Positions 4,763 to 17,826 of a stretch of DNA of 22,816 bases are shown here, in pieces. Under the pieces are notes generated by a model. That model had not been told where the DNA came from and made no database searches. It was given only the letters and a program-made list of their open reading frames with translations. Position numbers and translations under genes: made by a program. This DNA is from a virus: IMG/VR virus record IMGVR_UViG_3300006076_000029, positions 1 to 22,816 of that record; one strand, written 5' to 3'. How positions within the stretch are numbered: position 1 is the first letter of the stretch; the number at the start of each line of letters is the position of its first letter.

Positions 4763-7339
4763 ATGGGATATGGTGAAGTAATTATAAAAGTACAAGACAG
4801 ATCAACAGTTATACCTTCATTACCTGGTATGTATGGAGGAATTGTTTTAAGAACTAAAAAAGGTAAAGTAAATCATCCAGTTTTAATTACAAGTGAAGAT
4901 GAATTAATTGACACATTTGGTGAACCTATTGTTAAGTATCCAGAAATTTATTCCGCTTTAACATTTTTATCAGAAAGTAATAAATTATGGGCTGTTAGAG
5001 CAGCAGCTGATGATATCAAATATAGTGCAGCGCTTGTTAGAGGGAAAATAAAACCTGTAGATACAAGTAATCCATTAGCTCAATTTGATGATGAAAGTTT
5101 AATTGTTAAACCATTAAAAGGTTTAACAGAAGAAGATCTTGAAAGTTATGTATTTCCAACATATATAGGAAATAGATTATATGAATACGAAAATATAAAT
5201 ATTGCTTATGATAGTACTGGAAATAAAATTCCTGTTGATAATTTTGGTGATTTAGCTGTTAATGATAAAATTAGTTTAATCAAAACAACAGACCCCAATG
5301 GAACATTAACTCAATTAAATGATGATACAACAACATATGGTGAAAGTCAAGCGTTATATACAGTAACAGATTTAGTAACAGAAAATAATACATATGAAAA
5401 AATTACATTAGCAGACGCTGTAACAGTTAGCAGAGGTGATGAAATTCTCAAAAAAGATTCATCTGGTAATTATGTTTCATATCCAACTCCAGTAATTGTT
5501 GCATTTAATGCAAGTAATAGTACAGAAGTAATTGTTTATAATGCAGATTATATGGAACCAGGTGATAGTGTTCAAGCCGGTGGAACTGATACAACATTCA
5601 ATAAAAAAGATACTATAACAATTAAAGAAAATTTTGTTGAAATTGATAAAGATGTTACTTATGGACCTGATTATAAAATTTTTAAAATGACACAAAGTGA
5701 ATATGAAGAAAGAGATAGTTTCTTAGTAATTGAAGAAAGTCCAGGAGCTTGGGGTAATAAAATTAGTATAGGAATTGCTCCAAGTAAAAATTATGAAAAT
5801 GCATTCAATATTTTAGTATATTATGATGGTGTTCTTGTTGAAACTTGGGAAGTAACAAAAGAAGACTTTGTTGATGGTTATGGTAATCAAATGTATCTAG
5901 AAGATAAAATTAATGGAAAATCTAAATATATTAGAGTAATTGACAATAAAGGATATGATGCTAATCCACTTTATACAGACCATAGCTATTGGCAAAGATT
6001 AAAAGAACCTGTATATAGAAGCACAGGACTTACATTAGCAGAAAATTTATTACAAGGAAATACACAAGTTTATTTAAGTGGTGTAACAGGATTGAATGTT
6101 GGAGATAGAATTAAATTTGCTTATGATGTTGATGCTGAAGGAAATGTAATTCTTTCTAAAGAATATAAAGTTCAAAGCATTAATACAACTAATAATTATA
6201 TTATTATTGATAGACCACTTGAAGAATATGAAATTCCTAAAACATATACTGACTTAAATGGTAATAGTGTAAATACAGAAGTTAGAAAATTTGATTCAAC
6301 ATATAATGATTCAACAGCAGGAATTTTAAATGGTTATCAATATTATCCTATAGTAGAACTTGATAAAGTATTTTATAATTATCCTTTAGGTAAAATTATT
6401 ACAATAGGTGATTATCAAGGTGTATTACTTGATGCTGGTGTAAATCTATTAGGTGGCGGAGATAATGGAAGTGAGCCAAGTCTTGCAGATATGATTGAAG
6501 CGCTTGATACATTGAAAAATAGAGATAATACACCTATTCAATTGTTAATGGATGGTGGATATACAAATCCAGCTTATGCACAAGAATTGTATGAAGTTGC
6601 AAAAGCTCAAGATTTATGTCATGTTTATTTATCAGTTGACCCTAATGCAGAAATGAGTGCTGATTATAAAAATGCAGTAGTTGATTATATAAATAAATTA
6701 AATCTTGATACTGAAAAAGCAAGCGTATATGTAAGTTGGCTTAAAGTATTTGATAAATATAATAAAAAATATGTATGGGTTGCTCCAAGTGCATTCGCAG
6801 CAGCAAGTCAATCATATACATTTAGAAATTATTATGTATGGTATCCAGCAGCAGGTCTTGCAAGAGGTAAAGTAGTTGCACTTGATAGTCATATTAAACC
6901 AGATCAAGGAACAATAGATTGGTTTATTGAAAATAGAATTAATAGTATTAAATATATTAAAGGAACAGGATTTGTAATTTGGGGTAATAGAACATTATAT
7001 AGTAAACCAAGTCCATTACAAAGTAGAAATGTTGCAATGTTGTTAATTTATATTAAATATGGACTTTATAATATGTTACCATATAAATTATTTGACTTAA
7101 ACACAGATTTTGTTTGGGAAGTTACTCAAAAAGCAATAGAAGATTTCTTAAAAGATATTCAAGCTAAAAATGGATTATATGACTTTAAAGTAGCAATTAA
7201 AGATATTATTACTGATGTAGATATTCAAAATAGAAGAATGCCTATTTATATAGGTATTATACCTGTTGAAGGAATTGAAGAAATTCCTGTTACATTAGCA
7301 GTATATGCTTATGGTAATGAAATTCAAGTAGCACTATAA
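4763..7339 (+). CDS. Contractile tail sheath protein (T4 gp18-like)
   Basis: This 858-residue protein is the outer contractile layer of the tail. The N-terminal domain shows SLPGMYGGIV (19-28), an 'F-G-E-P' segment near 52 and LWAVRAAADD (75-84), as in sheath subunits that report on neighbouring rings. The C-terminal domain carries GTGFVIWGNRTLYSKPSPLQ (about 735 on), then a 'SRNVAMLL' helix and the terminal strand block IGIIPVEGIEEIPVTLAV, the region that interlocks subunits in this family. It is longer than T4 gp18, and the extra length lies in the middle (about 100-560, rich in T, N, D and Y), which suggests surface-exposed inserted domains. It is followed after 11 bases by the tail tube gene, the canonical pair. 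Confidence 0.92.
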   Translation: MGYGEVIIKVQDRSTVIPSLPGMYGGIVLRTKKGKVNHPVLITSEDELIDTFGEPIVKYPEIYSALTFLSESNKLWAVRAAADDIKYSAALVRGKIKPVDTSNPLAQFDDESLIVKPLKGLTEEDLESYVFPTYIGNRLYEYENINIAYDSTGNKIPVDNFGDLAVNDKISLIKTTDPNGTLTQLNDDTTTYGESQALYTVTDLVTENNTYEKITLADAVTVSRGDEILKKDSSGNYVSYPTPVIVAFNASNSTEVIVYNADYMEPGDSVQAGGTDTTFNKKDTITIKENFVEIDKDVTYGPDYKIFKMTQSEYEERDSFLVIEESPGAWGNKISIGIAPSKNYENAFNILVYYDGVLVETWEVTKEDFVDGYGNQMYLEDKINGKSKYIRVIDNKGYDANPLYTDHSYWQRLKEPVYRSTGLTLAENLLQGNTQVYLSGVTGLNVGDRIKFAYDVDAEGNVILSKEYKVQSINTTNNYIIIDRPLEEYEIPKTYTDLNGNSVNTEVRKFDSTYNDSTAGILNGYQYYPIVELDKVFYNYPLGKIITIGDYQGVLLDAGVNLLGGGDNGSEPSLADMIEALDTLKNRDNTPIQLLMDGGYTNPAYAQELYEVAKAQDLCHVYLSVDPNAEMSADYKNAVVDYINKLNLDTEKASVYVSWLKVFDKYNKKYVWVAPSAFAAASQSYTFRNYYVWYPAAGLARGKVVALDSHIKPDQGTIDWFIENRINSIKYIKGTGFVIWGNRTLYSKPSPLQSRNVAMLLIYIKYGLYNMLPYKLFDLNTDFVWEVTQKAIEDFLKDIQAKNGLYDFKVAIKDIITDVDIQNRRMPIYIGIIPVEGIEEIPVTLAVYAYGNEIQVAL

Positions 7340-7350
7340 GGAGATGAGAT

Positions 7351-7896
7351 ATGAAATTTGGATACGATAAAGTAAAAGGAGCTGTTACAGCTCCTCAAAA
7401 TACATTACATTGGATGATGACATTTACAAGTCCACCAGCAGGATTGAATTTTGGTGAAAATATGAGTATTTTATGTGATACAGCAACAACTCCTAATCCA
7501 GAAGTTGAACATTTACAAATTCAATTGCAAGGTCAAACATTAAATTTTCCAGGGAGAATAAATAGAAGTGGAACTATAACATTAACATTTATTCAACCAG
7601 AGAAAGACCAAGAAGCTATTGATTTAATTTATCAGTGGTTGAATATTTATTGGGAAAATGCAGGTCAGATGCAAGGTAATACATTAAAAGCTCCAAAAGA
7701 ATTATATGCCACTGTAAAATTATCACTTTATGATGCAACAGGACAAGTAGAAACAAGAGCTTTTGAATTAATTGATTGTTTACCACAATTAGAAAATGGA
7801 GCTGAATTAGGACAAGAAGCAGCAGCAATGAAGCCTCAACTTACATTAACTTATAATAATTTCCATTATTATGTAAAAGGGAAAAAAGTCTTCTAA
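7351..7896 (+). CDS. Tail tube protein (T4 gp19-like)
   Basis: The 181-residue product forms the inner tube through which DNA leaves. Size and features fit the tube family: an N-terminal segment with WMMTFTSPPA, a strand block HLQIQLQGQTLNFPGRINRS followed by GTITLTF (about 54-80), a helix with EAIDLIYQWLNIYWEN and a final strand LTLTYNNFHYYVKG. The gene directly follows the sheath with an AAGGAG site. Codons 9-15 form a GC-rich hairpin, and the 3' end runs into a homopyrimidine mirror repeat; both are unusual for this AT-rich DNA and may relate to expression of an abundant protein. Confidence 0.9.
   Translation: MKFGYDKVKGAVTAPQNTLHWMMTFTSPPAGLNFGENMSILCDTATTPNPEVEHLQIQLQGQTLNFPGRINRSGTITLTFIQPEKDQEAIDLIYQWLNIYWENAGQMQGNTLKAPKELYATVKLSLYDATGQVETRAFELIDCLPQLENGAELGQEAAAMKPQLTLTYNNFHYYVKGKKVF
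7377..7395 (+). other. GC-rich hairpin inside the start of the tube gene
   Basis: AGGAGCTG (7377-7384) pairs perfectly with CAGCTCCT (7388-7395) around a TTA loop. It begins 27 bases after the start codon. The 3' arm CTCCT could alternatively pair with the real ribosome-binding site AGGAG at 7339-7343, while the 5' arm is itself an AGGAG decoy. Role unknown. Confidence 0.5.
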
Positions 7897-8134: not shown

Positions 8135-8653
8135 ATGATAGGATATGAAAAAGTTTCTCCAAAAAGTTTTATAGCTGGAGATACAGCAAGATGGTATTCA
8201 AAATTTGACGATATAAAATTCAATATATTAGGAGGATATGCTCCTATAATCGATTGGAATTTTGAATATGGTATTATAAATAAACAATTTCAAATCTCTC
8301 CATTACAAAAAGAATTTAGTGTTCCTATAACAAAAAAGAATGTAACTCATCTTTCAGTGACCATTGTTGATAACGATAGTAAAGATTTTTTATATGCTTT
8401 ATTAAAATGGATACATGATTTACCTATAAGTAAAAATAAAGCAATTGACCTTAAAAATTTAGAAAAATATGCTAAAGAATTTTATATATTTGTAGAAAAT
8501 AAAAAAGGAATTGTTCAATATTATTATAGATTTAAACTATTACCAGGAGATAGTTTAACAGATAATGGGACATCTGATTTTCAAGCTAAAACATATCCTT
8601 ATACTTTCAATGTTATTGGTTTTGAAGTAATATTTCCACAAAAACAAGAATAA
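8135..8653 (+). CDS. Tube-like or baseplate protein, tentative
   Basis: The 172-residue product is strand-rich: GGYAPIIDWNFEYGII, FQISPLQKEFSVPITKK, THLSVTIVDN, then a helix DFLYALLKWIHDL, and a C-terminal strand TYPYTFNVIGFEVIFPQ. A first sheet of strands, one central helix and a closing strand is the layout of tube-fold proteins, and the gene lies between the tube and the tape measure. It might be a second tube-type protein acting at the tail end or baseplate. No family motif confirms this. It is the first gene after dyad element 1 and has the AAAGGAT leader shared with the gene at 13231, so it likely heads an operon. Confidence 0.45.
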   Translation: MIGYEKVSPKSFIAGDTARWYSKFDDIKFNILGGYAPIIDWNFEYGIINKQFQISPLQKEFSVPITKKNVTHLSVTIVDNDSKDFLYALLKWIHDLPISKNKAIDLKNLEKYAKEFYIFVENKKGIVQYYYRFKLLPGDSLTDNGTSDFQAKTYPYTFNVIGFEVIFPQKQE

Positions 8654-8662
8654 GGAGTTAAA

Positions 8663-9559
8663 ATGAAAAAATTTGTAATGTTAAGATCAGATATTCTTGA
8701 AGATGATATTAGATATTTAGAATTAGATGAATTACCAAGTGAATTTAGATTTTATGATAAAAATAGAGTATATGTTAGGGGACTTAATCTTTTAGAAATT
8801 GAAGCATTAAGTCAATATACAGATATTGATATTAATAAAGATATTAATCAATTAGTAACTATTTATAAAGATGTAATTAAAGGAATAGATATATATGATT
8901 TAGAATTTATTGATTTTTTAATGCTTGTTGCTATAAGTTCAGTTTTGACAACTAATTCAATGAATTGGGAAACAGAATTAACATGTATTAATTTGGTGCC
9001 TAATACAGAAAAAGATAAAATAGATAATGAAATTAAAGAATTAAAGAATAAATTAAGAGAACTTACAAAAGAAGAAGAAATTGAAGAAATTCAAAATAAA
9101 ATTATAGAATTAGAAGAAAAGAAAAAAGAATTAGATGATTATGTTGAATGTGGTAATATTTTACCACCTATAACATTAGAAGATTTTGAATTTAAAGAAC
9201 CAAAGCAAAAAGATTATATTATAAAAGATAATTATAAATTTGGTCCTGTATTTATAAAAGATTTAGTTGAATTTCAGCAATTTGATGTAAAAAAATATTT
9301 TCCAAATATTTTTAAATTAAAACCAGATTTTGATAAAGAGTATTTATTACCTATCCTTTATTTAAAAGAAGTTAATGGAAAAACAGATATTATTTCAAAA
9401 ATTAAAGAAGTTCTAATAAATCCTAATTTATTAATTGAATTAAAAAATATGGAAAATATATTTGAAATAGAGCAAGAACCTATTATTAAAATTTGTGATA
9501 AATGTGGATATGAAAATAAAATTTATATAGGTTTACAAAATATTAAGGTATATCCCTAG
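8663..9559 (+). CDS. gp26/gp51-like tail assembly (baseplate hub) chaperone, unshifted form
   Basis: The 298-residue protein opens with LPSEFRFYDKNRVYVRGLNL followed by EIEALSQY, the 'P-S-x-G/F...Y, I/V-Y-V-R-x-L/M-x-x-x-E...L-S' opening I associate with the T4 gp26/gp51 hub-assembly family. A coiled-coil insert of E, K and I lies at about 114-155. Near the end is a CxxC motif (C278, C281, in CDKCGYENK) followed by IYIGLQ, also typical of that family, where the cysteines may bind zinc. The stop TAG is preceded by CCC in a likely +1 frameshift site, giving a longer form to 9686. Such genes normally precede the tape measure gene, as here. Confidence 0.65.
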   Translation: MKKFVMLRSDILEDDIRYLELDELPSEFRFYDKNRVYVRGLNLLEIEALSQYTDIDINKDINQLVTIYKDVIKGIDIYDLEFIDFLMLVAISSVLTTNSMNWETELTCINLVPNTEKDKIDNEIKELKNKLRELTKEEEIEEIQNKIIELEEKKKELDDYVECGNILPPITLEDFEFKEPKQKDYIIKDNYKFGPVFIKDLVEFQQFDVKKYFPNIFKLKPDFDKEYLLPILYLKEVNGKTDIISKIKEVLINPNLLIELKNMENIFEIEQEPIIKICDKCGYENKIYIGLQNIKVYP

Positions 9560-9686
9560 TTTAACATTTGAAGAATATATAAAAATGAAAAGTATTTATT
9601 TAAAATTATATCATTCTTACCCACCTTATAATATGAGTTATAGAGAATTTATTGATTTATTAAAAGAGCTTGAAAAGGAAGATTAA
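8663..9686 (+). CDS. Frameshifted (+1) long form of the tail assembly chaperone
   Basis: After CCC (9554-9556) the zero frame stops at TAG. Reading CCT (9555-9557) in the +1 frame gives 42 more residues, SLTFEEYIKMKSIYLKLYHS and then YPPYNMSYREFIDLLKELEK with a final ED, ending at TAA 9684-9686. The extension has ordinary protein composition and the same codon use as neighbours. The +1 frame is closed just upstream (stop at 9528-9530) and its only internal ATG (9585) lacks a ribosome-binding site, so it is most simply reached by frameshifting. Tail chaperone genes commonly make a minor shifted product (lambda G and GT), usually by -1; a +1 shift at CCC-stop is known from Listeria phage PSA. 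Confidence 0.6.
9545..9559 (+). promoter_or_regulatory. Candidate +1 frameshift site (AAGG, CCC, TAG)
   Basis: A ribosome-binding-like AAGG (9545-9548) lies five bases before CCC (9554-9556), and UAG occupies the next codon. This is the same set of parts as the prfB frameshift: an internal Shine-Dalgarno sequence, a P-site codon that can re-pair one base downstream (CCC to CCU) and a slowly read stop codon. Confidence 0.6.
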
Positions 9687-9704: not shown

Positions 9705-12434
9705 ATGAATCAAAACGAAAAAAGTATTGAAAATATACAAATTAATAAAGAAGTTCTAGAGCAATTAGAAAAAATTCCTTTTGAAATTCATAATTTATAT
9801 AAAATAATTCAGAATAGAGATACTGATTTAGACTATGAGCTAAAAATAGTAAATAAAGTTCTAACATCAAAAAAAGATATAGGTCAATTAAAAGAATTTG
9901 ATTATTTATCAAAAAAATATAATATTAAGACGCTTAAAGAAATTCAAGAATTAAAAAATGAATTAAGCAAAATTAAATTTGAAAAACAAAGTTTATATAC
10001 AGAAATAAAAAATACAGAATTACAAAAAGGAACGAAAAAAGTTCTTTTAGATATAGCAGATAAAATTTCAACAAAATCAGACCTTGAATTAGTTAAGCCA
10101 TTATTAAAAGAATATCATGCTGATACTGAAGCTATGATTAAATTATATTCAGGTATTAAAAATGAAATTAAAAATTTAGATATGAATATTATTCAAAAAG
10201 GAAAATTATTTGCAAGATTAAATGAAGTGCTTGAAGAATTTAATAAAAAAGGACAACTTGATTTAGATTTAGTTACAAAAATAAATGAATTAGCAAGCAA
10301 ATTTAATAATAATGAAATTCAAAAAATTATAAATGAGTCATTTAAAGGTGAGTATAATAAAACTTTAATGGAAAATTTATCAAAAGTTATAACAGAAAAA
10401 TCAAGAGAATATAATTTTGAAAATACACAAGCATATCAAAAATTTTTATTAGGAAAAAGTGATTATAAAACATTTATTAATAATTTGAAAGACGAATTAA
10501 AAGATGTTTATGATTCAGAAAAGATAAATAAAATATTAACTGACATAGATGTTTCAATTAAAGAAGAATTAAATCAAGATAAAATAATTTCTAAATTAAT
10601 AAATGATTTAGTTAATATTTCAGATAGTTCTAAAAAAGATCTAGCGAACTTATTAGAAAGTTATAAACAAGGACAAATAACTCAAGGAGAATTTAATTTA
10701 CAACTTGAAAAAATAGCAAAAGATAATGATATAAAAACAGAGGAATTGCAAAAATCAATAGAGCCTTTATTAGAAAATATAGATGAATCAAATGCAGAAA
10801 AAATAAAAGAACAAAGAAGATTTGAATTAATAACAGAAGCAGCAAAAAAATTAACTGATATAACAGGAAAAGCAAAAATCGATATAGATAAAAAAGATAA
10901 GGAAAATATTTTAAAATCATCCCAAAATGTTGAAGATTTAACATATAATTTAACAAGCAAGTTTCTTGATAAGATATTTGGAAAAGGAACAATTGTAGAA
11001 AAAATATTTGATAAAATAACAGATAAAGTATTTAAAAAAGTTGGTGGAAAAATTTTTAGAAAATTAGAAGGTACAATTGTAGGAAAAATAGTTAGAAATC
11101 TTGAAGGAAGTATAGCTAAAAAAATTGGTGGAAGATTATTAGGTAGATTAGGAGCAACATTTTTAGGGGAAGAAGGCGGTTCATTATTAGGAGGTTTATT
11201 AGGCGGTGGAGCATTAACTGCAGAAACAGCAGCTGGTGCAACGGCCGCAGAAACAGCAGCAGCCGCAGGGGGATTGTCATCTTTAGGAAGTGGTCTTGCA
11301 GCAGCAGGTTCATTTTTAGTTACAAATCCTATTGGGTGGGCTATTTTAGGTGCAGCAGCAATAGGTGGAGCAAGTTATTATGCTTATAAAAAAATATACG
11401 GAAAAGATAAAGAGCTTATTAATAAACTTGAAAAAGAAGGCGCTTATGAATATCATTTTTTTGGAAAATCAAAAATCAAAGATTGGTCAAAAATACTTGA
11501 ATTAGATAATAAAGATTTAAAGCATTTAATTCATTTTGGCGATTTAGATGATAAACAATATAAAATGTTACAAAAATTAATAGAAATACCTGAAGACTTA
11601 AGAAAAGCTATTTCATATGAGATGATTTTAAATGAAGCACAAGTAACAGATAAAGGAATACATATTTCAAGTAAAGGACTACAAGACCTTGTTGGTAGAT
11701 TTGGAATTCCTAAAAAAGAATTAAAATCATTATTAGATGTAGTAGATCCATATACAAAGAAAAAATTACTTGAAAAAGCAAAATCAAATCCAGAACTTAA
11801 AAAAGCAATAGAAGAACAAGAAAAGAAAGATAAAAAATATAAAAAGTGGGATAAAGAATCAAAAAAAGAACATAGTGGTATCAGTGAATTTTTAAAAAGA
11901 ACATCAAATTCATTTATTACTCCATTAGGAACTATTGCTAATGCTATCAAAGTCGGTGAATCAATGTTCGGTGGAGATGAGTATCAATTAATAGATACAT
12001 TAGAAAAGATGGGAGCTGTTAAACATTATATTTTTGGAGATTCAGAAATAACTGACTGGAAAAAAATTGCAGCATTACCTGCTGAAGATATTAAAAAATT
12101 AATTGAATTTGATGATTGGGATAAAGATACATTAAAAAAATTAAAAGCATTATATCAAGAAAAAATAAATATTAAAAAGAAACATGAAAAAATTGAACTT
12201 GCTAAAAAATATTTAGCAAATAATATGAAACCTGAGCTTGTAGCACAAACAGTTCATTTACCATTGAGTGAAGTTAAAAAATTACAACAAACAAATAGTA
12301 TAGCATATATTCCTAAAGTTAAATCATCAAAAGATGAAAAAGAACAAAAACAAGAAATTAATTATCAAGATCATACCACTATTATTTATCAGCATACAGA
12401 AAATAAAACAACAAAAATAGCAAGTTTATATTAA
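9705..12434 (+). CDS. Tape measure protein
   Basis: This 909-residue protein should set tail length. Residues 1 to about 420 are charged, helical and coiled-coil-like, rich in K, E, L and N. Residues about 460-566 are Gly/Ala-rich and hydrophobic, with GGSLLGGLLGGGAL, TAAETAAAAGGLSSLGSGLA and the membrane-like NPIGWAILGAAAIGG; such segments are common in tape measures that cross the host envelope. A module of about 60 residues occurs twice (from 568 and from 758), each with a 'L-I-x-x-L-E-K-x-G-A-x-x-x-x-F-G-x-S-x-I-x-D-W-x-K-I' pattern. It is the longest gene here and follows the chaperone pair, as in other tailed phages. At about 1.5 angstrom per helical residue it would predict a tail of roughly 130-140 nm. 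Confidence 0.82.
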   Translation: MNQNEKSIENIQINKEVLEQLEKIPFEIHNLYKIIQNRDTDLDYELKIVNKVLTSKKDIGQLKEFDYLSKKYNIKTLKEIQELKNELSKIKFEKQSLYTEIKNTELQKGTKKVLLDIADKISTKSDLELVKPLLKEYHADTEAMIKLYSGIKNEIKNLDMNIIQKGKLFARLNEVLEEFNKKGQLDLDLVTKINELASKFNNNEIQKIINESFKGEYNKTLMENLSKVITEKSREYNFENTQAYQKFLLGKSDYKTFINNLKDELKDVYDSEKINKILTDIDVSIKEELNQDKIISKLINDLVNISDSSKKDLANLLESYKQGQITQGEFNLQLEKIAKDNDIKTEELQKSIEPLLENIDESNAEKIKEQRRFELITEAAKKLTDITGKAKIDIDKKDKENILKSSQNVEDLTYNLTSKFLDKIFGKGTIVEKIFDKITDKVFKKVGGKIFRKLEGTIVGKIVRNLEGSIAKKIGGRLLGRLGATFLGEEGGSLLGGLLGGGALTAETAAGATAAETAAAAGGLSSLGSGLAAAGSFLVTNPIGWAILGAAAIGGASYYAYKKIYGKDKELINKLEKEGAYEYHFFGKSKIKDWSKILELDNKDLKHLIHFGDLDDKQYKMLQKLIEIPEDLRKAISYEMILNEAQVTDKGIHISSKGLQDLVGRFGIPKKELKSLLDVVDPYTKKKLLEKAKSNPELKKAIEEQEKKDKKYKKWDKESKKEHSGISEFLKRTSNSFITPLGTIANAIKVGESMFGGDEYQLIDTLEKMGAVKHYIFGDSEITDWKKIAALPAEDIKKLIEFDDWDKDTLKKLKALYQEKINIKKKHEKIELAKKYLANNMKPELVAQTVHLPLSEVKKLQQTNSIAYIPKVKSSKDEKEQKQEINYQDHTTIIYQHTENKTTKIASLY

Positions 12435-17538: not shown

Positions 17539-17547
17539 GGATTGATA

Positions 17548-17826
17548 ATGCTACCAGCTCATAGATTAGGAGATTGCGATAGTGGTCACGATTGCTTTCC
17601 TCCACAAGTTCTTGTTACAGCAAGCATAAATACAAAAGCTAATGGAAAAGGAATAGGAAGAATAGGAGATATTTATTCTTCACATTGTTGTAAATCTTGT
17701 CATTCTGGCAATGTTGCAACAGGATCAATTGGAGTTTTTATAAATGGAAGAAATGCAGCACATATAGGAAGTCTTGTAAGTTGCGGAGGTGTTGCTGTTT
17801 GTTGTAGTCCTAATGTAGATGTTTAA
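17548..17826 (+). CDS. PAAR-type spike tip protein (gp5.4-like)
   Basis: The 92-residue product begins MLPAHRLGDCDSGHD, a PAAR-like opening with His in place of the second Ala, then has glycine-rich turns (IGRIGDIYSSHCC, GSIGVFINGRNAAHIGSLVS) typical of the pointed PAAR cone. Eight cysteines and several histidines suit metal binding at the tip. I prefer the ATG at 17548: the AAGG at 17537-17540 is seven bases before it. The in-frame TTG at 17542 would add two residues but sits too close to the ribosome-binding site. It is the last gene of its block and a hairpin follows directly. Confidence 0.8.
   Translation: MLPAHRLGDCDSGHDCFPPQVLVTASINTKANGKGIGRIGDIYSSHCCKSCHSGNVATGSIGVFINGRNAAHIGSLVSCGGVAVCCSPNVDV

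Follow-up and report, generated by a model that had tools for sequence, protein, structure and literature searches.

The chaperone gene and its 3' end

The stretch of DNA analysed here (hereafter the window) comprises the 22,816 nucleotides of the IMG/VR virus record IMGVR_UViG_3300006076_000029, and it encodes, between its tail tube genes and a presumed tape measure gene, a predicted tail chaperone at the end of which we propose that ribosomes shift into the +1 frame. The open reading frame in question lies at 8663..9559 on the + strand, as do the other tail genes described below, and its 298-residue frame-0 product is TAC-N like as judged by an AlphaFold model, hhalign and Foldseek. The 3' end of the gene reads ...AAT ATT AAG GTA TAT CCC TAG, in which an internal Shine-Dalgarno (SD)-like AAGG (9545-9548) is followed by TATAT (9549-9553), the proline codon CCC (9554-9556) and the stop codon TAG (9557-9559); the candidate shift site, 9554..9559, would thus hold the proline codon in the P site and the stop in the A site. 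A stop codon at 9528..9530 in the +1 frame bounds the possible shift positions, and from 9531 this frame is open down to the TAA at 9684-9686. The part beyond the slip point (9558..9686) consists of 42 codons plus the TAA, would form the C-terminal part of a predicted long chaperone, and stops just 5' of the presumed tape measure gene, whose ATG is at 9705.

The initial annotation of the window had pointed out the chaperone frame ending in CCC TAG, the +1 stop upstream, the AAGG five bases before CCC and the 42 codons that a +1 slip would open, and this observation holds for every base given; the arrangement is not a product of chance. Past the window stop, frame 0 closes within three codons and the -1 frame after one codon. 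At the composition of the window, 42 codons would stay open by chance with a probability of 0.008, the corresponding values in each of eight relatives are 0.003-0.036, and their product is about 1e-18 if the lineages are taken as independent, which they are not in full.

Conservation of the proline-stop junction

The site could be read in ten lineages, i.e. the window, Cobetia phage Carin-5, the Yersinia phages YerA41 and GN1 taken together, and seven IMG/VR lineages with a complete site (L006/L007, L008, L009, L011, L012, L013 and L029). Carin-5, YerA41 and GN1 were found in a tblastn search of annotated phages, the latter two belonging to the genus Sepahanvirus (PMC12451628), and the seven IMG/VR lineages by alignment of the sheath protein. 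The window chaperone used alone as a query had no match among viral contigs, an alignment of four chaperone proteins retrieved only one truncated contig from them, and no relative was found in the bacterial genome contigs searched.

An alignment of relatives, which the initial annotation had proposed as a check, revealed that all ten lineages keep the proline-stop junction together with the +1 extension. The junction is CCC TAG in five of them (the window, YerA41/GN1, L011, L012 and L013), CCC TAA in four (L006/L007, L008, L009 and L029) and CCT TGA in Carin-5, and every lineage has 42-49 open codons in the +1 frame, reaching close to the presumed tape measure gene. In Carin-5, YerA41 and GN1, the 142-153 nucleotides between the chaperone and the next gene carry no annotated gene. 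Furthermore, L029, which was found after the prediction had been made, reads ATT CGG GGG TAT CCC TAA and has a 44-codon extension.

CCC accounts for 2.6% of the proline codons in the window and for about 0.6-8% in the relatives, and it fills the site in nine of the ten lineages, giving a probability product of 10^-13.6. No other four-fold codon at the invariant or nearly invariant positions of the gene is as well conserved (9/10); for comparison, the invariant Pro25 is encoded by three codons (CCA, CCT and CCC). This codon usage indicates that the putative shift site is selected at the nucleotide level.

The +1 extension as a protein

The 42 codons had been called protein-like, and comparison with the relatives bears this out. 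The extensions of nine lineages have a mean pairwise z of 8.5 when read in the +1 frame vs 1.5 and 0.8 in the other frames. When each member was left out of the profile in turn, its extension was the best six-frame segment of its own locus (E 5e-8 to 6e-17), the window extension being recognised among all six-frame segments of the window at E 4.8e-8, and the extension of L029 was recognised by the earlier-built profile at E 5e-7. The extensions share a pattern of roughly YK..L......W...FH..IP....Y.D....L and have diverged to 12-49% identity to that of the window; judged from these alignments, the predicted extensions encode one protein family. In L006 (12780-12790) and L012 (12740-12755) the TGA of the extension overlaps with a GTG (GTGA) at which the frame of the next gene begins, and in L011 (12750-12765) an ATG closely follows its TAA (TAATATG), junctions that fit, as expected, adjacent translated genes.

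The internal Shine-Dalgarno-like stretch

An SD-like stretch precedes the site in nine of the ten lineages. In Carin-5 and L029 it closely resembles that of prfB and has the prfB-type spacing of about 3 nucleotides, to which YerA41 comes near; AAGG is the sole SD-like element in six lineages, including the window, and L012 has none. The AAG or AGG lysine/arginine codon that contributes to it is the minority synonymous choice in eight of the first nine lineages (fractions 0.04-0.30), with a probability product of 1.4e-8 when L012 is left out and the lineages are treated as independent. The predicted SD duplex of Carin-5 (-10.7 kcal/mol) is the strongest of all windows in its gene, that of YerA41 is moderate, and the others are weak.

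Other possible accessories of the shift were looked for as well. No conserved RNA structure was found downstream of the site (z-scores -2.8 to +1.2, no common fold), none of the tRNAs encoded by Carin-5, YerA41 and the L012 contig is specific for proline, and no gene with an RF-1 domain was present in the seven related records searched. It had also been suggested that the efficiency of the shift could respond to release factor 1 (RF1) through the UAG codon. UAA is read by both RF1 and RF2, and UGA by RF2 only; since the stop at the site varies among UAG, UAA and UGA, an RF1-specific response is not a conserved property, and this part of the proposal is not supported.

Probable programmed +1 frameshifting and its alternatives

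Because the window combines a CCC-stop with an SD-like stretch 5' of it, a prfB-like shift suggests itself, and as far as its elements are present (slippery P-site codon, A-site stop, internal SD-like stretch), the analogy with prfB that had been proposed for this gene holds good. Given the observed anatomy, its conservation, the coding nature of the extension and the lack of an alternative start, we are highly confident that the gene undergoes a prfB-like programmed +1 ribosomal frameshift at CCC-stop, from which a major short form and a minor long form of the chaperone would result; the occurrence and efficiency of the slip, the part played by the SD and the function as a chaperone are what we infer. 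The ribosome would reach CCC UAG with peptidyl-tRNA-Pro in the P site, and slow termination at the stop would let the tRNA slip from CCC to the overlapping CCU, while the upstream AAGG or AGGGGG may pair with 16S rRNA and add forward tension as in prfB. Slipped ribosomes would resume at AGU and add 42-49 residues, and the remaining ones would terminate. The predicted products, encoded just 5' of the presumed tape measure gene, would be TAC-N and TAC-NC, like gpG and gpGT of lambda.

Several points weigh against frameshifting at this site. The lineages share ancestry, so the multiplied probabilities overstate the significance; the CCU UGA of Carin-5 re-pairs to CUU in the +1 frame, which is poorer than CCC to CCU; and the SD-like duplex of the window is weak (-4.0 kcal/mol), 41 of the 803 windows of the gene being equal or stronger. 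L012 keeps the site and the extension without an SD-like stretch (CGA GCC TTT CCC TAG, L012:11887-12612), so the SD would be dispensable or replaced there. In addition, the long product is a prediction from the sequence, and the role as a chaperone is deduced from the order of the genes, from remote profile matches and from the predicted fold.

A -2 slip, or a shift some codons before the site, would join the same two frames, and as the +1 frame is open for 4-24 codons 5' of the site, the sequence does not fix the position to the very base. However, the +1 frame opens just 4-9 codons before the site in eight of nine lineages; L008, L009 and L013 offer only four codons, among which the proline-stop is the sole invariant shift-prone element, and CCC is kept at the site despite its rarity. 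We therefore regard a shift elsewhere as very unlikely. Slightly less probable still is that the extension is a separate small gene with its own start, or one reached by reinitiation after the chaperone stop. Codon 9 of the window extension is indeed an ATG, and internal ATGs occur in several relatives, but the +1 frame of L008 lacks any ATG, GTG or TTG, and the first one in the 45-codon extension of YerA41 is codon 36; moreover, the start positions are not conserved, most lack an SD, and the conservation begins at the codon right after the proline, ahead of any start. Finally, changing a single base would be enough to join the two frames, but a sequencing error at the C run, a pseudogene, transcriptional slippage or readthrough of the stop can hardly be credited at all: frame 0 closes at once (1-9 codons past the stop in all nine lineages tabulated), the site has no long homopolymer, and independently assembled genomes of ten lineages show the same arrangement, with an identical site in the two isolates YerA41 and GN1 of one genus.

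Identity of the chaperone and its neighbours

The AlphaFold model of the frame-0 protein has a mean predicted local distance difference test score of 85.7, and the protein features the cysteine pairs C108/C163 and C278/C281 and a coiled-coil insert. At E < 1e-3, Foldseek matched this model to 11 models of viral proteins, among them a T4-like baseplate hub subunit of Vibrio phage VH7D (E 8.5e-6), and found no significant match by fold in the PDB; matches of the sequence to solved structures looked like chance or coiled-coil similarity and were set aside. By hhalign, the window family is linked to the chaperone of more distant phages with a probability of 98, and three of six of these distant homologs match Pfam PF12322 (T4_baseplate, the family of T4 gp26/gp51) with a best E of 9e-7. 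The window protein itself has no match to PF12322, the direct comparison of the window family with T4 gp26/gp51 was not significant, and single-protein searches from two distant chaperones found nothing; the protein thus appears, from these profile comparisons, to be a remote relative only of PF12322. YerA41_187c is annotated as hypothetical and some of its neighbours as 'structural', a weak sign of absence from the virion, since the tube genes there are also called hypothetical.

The tail sheath gene (4763..7339; PHROG phrog_23, E 1.6e-47), the anchor for finding relatives, is followed by a tail tube gene (7351..7896; phrog_45, E 7e-14) and, directly 5' of the chaperone, a second tube-like gene (8135..8653), whose syntenic counterpart in Carin-5 is annotated 'baseplate tail-tube protein'. 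The 909-residue product of 9705..12434 is presumed to be the tape measure protein from its position, its synteny with Carin-5 and YerA41, and a weak PHROG tape-measure match (E 0.004). The sheath, with 858 residues, is far longer than the sheaths of about 590-600 residues in the Escherichia and Acinetobacter relatives, which suggests large inserted domains. Further downstream, 17542-17826, listed with a TTG start, encodes a small protein in which G, C and H residues recur and which by eye we take to resemble a PAAR-type spike tip.

A second site type in distant phages

Twelve of the 13 distant homologous chaperones carry the motif CCN TTT CGT, and that of Va2 carries CCC TAT TCA. The twelve are Acinetobacter phage Ab1-TPeters, Escherichia phages EP_H11 and IME392, Rhizobium phage RHph_TM39, Vibrio phages 150E35-1, 1.031.O, GR7B and GR11A, Thermus phage phiLo, and Pseudomonas phages Peetri, Voja-6 and Amme-1 (sites at L022:8521, L020:8598, L048:2182, L025:7706, L027:8065, L053:2272, L021:9554, L052:2290, L049:2188, L050:2278, L051:2236 and L054:2236). 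The opening of the +1 frame lies 0-17 codons 5' of the site (0 in phiLo, and 1 in RHph_TM39, GR11A and Va2), and the frame extends 26-62 codons beyond the gene's own stop. A conserved TTT GGC near the gene end was considered as the slip site and dropped, as the +1 frames open 0-1 codons before CCN TTT CGT in three phages, and before CCC TAT in Va2. Influenza A virus and the amalgaviruses use UUU-CGN for +1 shifts, and this motif has been suggested for the chaperones of the HF1 haloviruses (PMC7230728). Judged by sequence, these distant myophages seem to carry in CCN TTT CGT a +1 frameshift site of the influenza A type (UUU-CGU), here in bacterial viruses. Overlapping genes annotated as 'hypothetical protein' (L025:7737-7886, L027:8084-8296, L051:2267-2437, L052:2321-2497, L053:2291-2503 and L054:2267-2437) are probably chaperone +1 extensions rather than separate genes. 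The chaperone gene itself is annotated as 'DNA methylase' in phiLo (L049:1474-2220) and as 'peptidase domain-containing protein' in Rhizobium phages (L025:6986-7771), and both annotations look wrong.

In the profile alignment, I289 of the window corresponds to V236 of Ab1, and the slip-site proline lies nine residues further on in both (P298 and P245), so the two predicted sites are most likely homologous. We lean, by a small measure, towards the view that a +1 position at one homologous proline of the T4_baseplate-like chaperone has been conserved since the common ancestor of these large myophages, the A-site signal having been swapped (the YerA41-like phages have a stop, and the others CGU following CCN-UUU) with direction and place kept, and that the two-gene form of T4 is a split of the ancestral frameshifted gene. 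The literature searched, which leaves out most subscription journals, yielded no description of either type of site from these phages.

Relation to known systems

The +1 shift on CCCUAA in gene 17.1/17.1* of Bacillus phage SPP1, with a ratio of 3:1 (PMC6316719), and that on CCC_UGA in PSA tsh (PMC5009743) are both documented. They resemble the window in the frame-0 end at CCC-stop, the re-pairing to CCU, the longer minor product and the rarity of CCC (PMC6316719, PMC5009743), but concern the major tail tube and tail shaft proteins, whose extended form is in the virion, whereas that of the window is a chaperone gene; the Listeria phage PSA precedent cited in the initial annotation is a shift in a tail shaft gene rather than in a chaperone gene (PMC5009743). 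For SPP1's own chaperone, 17.5/17.5*, a putative -1 shift has been reported.

Among cellular genes, prfB is alike in its internal SD, P-site slip codon and A-site stop. Its site is AGG GGG UAU CUU UGA C, which AGG GGG UAC CCU UGA C of Carin-5 closely resembles; L029 is close too, and the window, with AAGG only, is weaker. Unlike prfB, the gene is a chaperone rather than a release factor, the slip codon is for proline instead of leucine, all three stops are used with UGA only in Carin-5, the SD is weak or absent in some members, and a feedback loop is not expected. An SD 3 nucleotides upstream is a known stimulator of +1 shifts, as in prfB (PMC5009743).

Frameshifting by -1 is classically associated with tail chaperones; among long-tailed phages, T4 is singled out in a review as the exception. 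The window gene shares with lambda gpG/gpGT and other chaperones the position before the tape measure gene and the short and extended forms from one gene, but most of those slip by -1 on heptamers; +1 shifts have been proposed for the chaperones of haloviruses HSTV-2 and the HF1 group (PMC5009743, PMC7230728). With T4 gp26/gp51 the links are the PF12322 matches of the distant homologs and the predicted fold, and the difference is that T4 has two separate genes, for which Vladimirov 2022, as cited in PMC12846349, is said to argue for a mechanism other than frameshifting.

The +1 reading adds frames of 40-90 codons that are omitted or called hypothetical genes in current annotation. The natural series of +1 sites (CCC-UAG, CCC-UAA, CCU-UGA and CCN-UUU-CGU, with the SD strong, weak or absent) would be useful for studying the effects of slow codons and the SD on frameshift efficiency, and the constant position of a +1 design in remote relatives of T4_baseplate would give the missing link to T4 a testable form.
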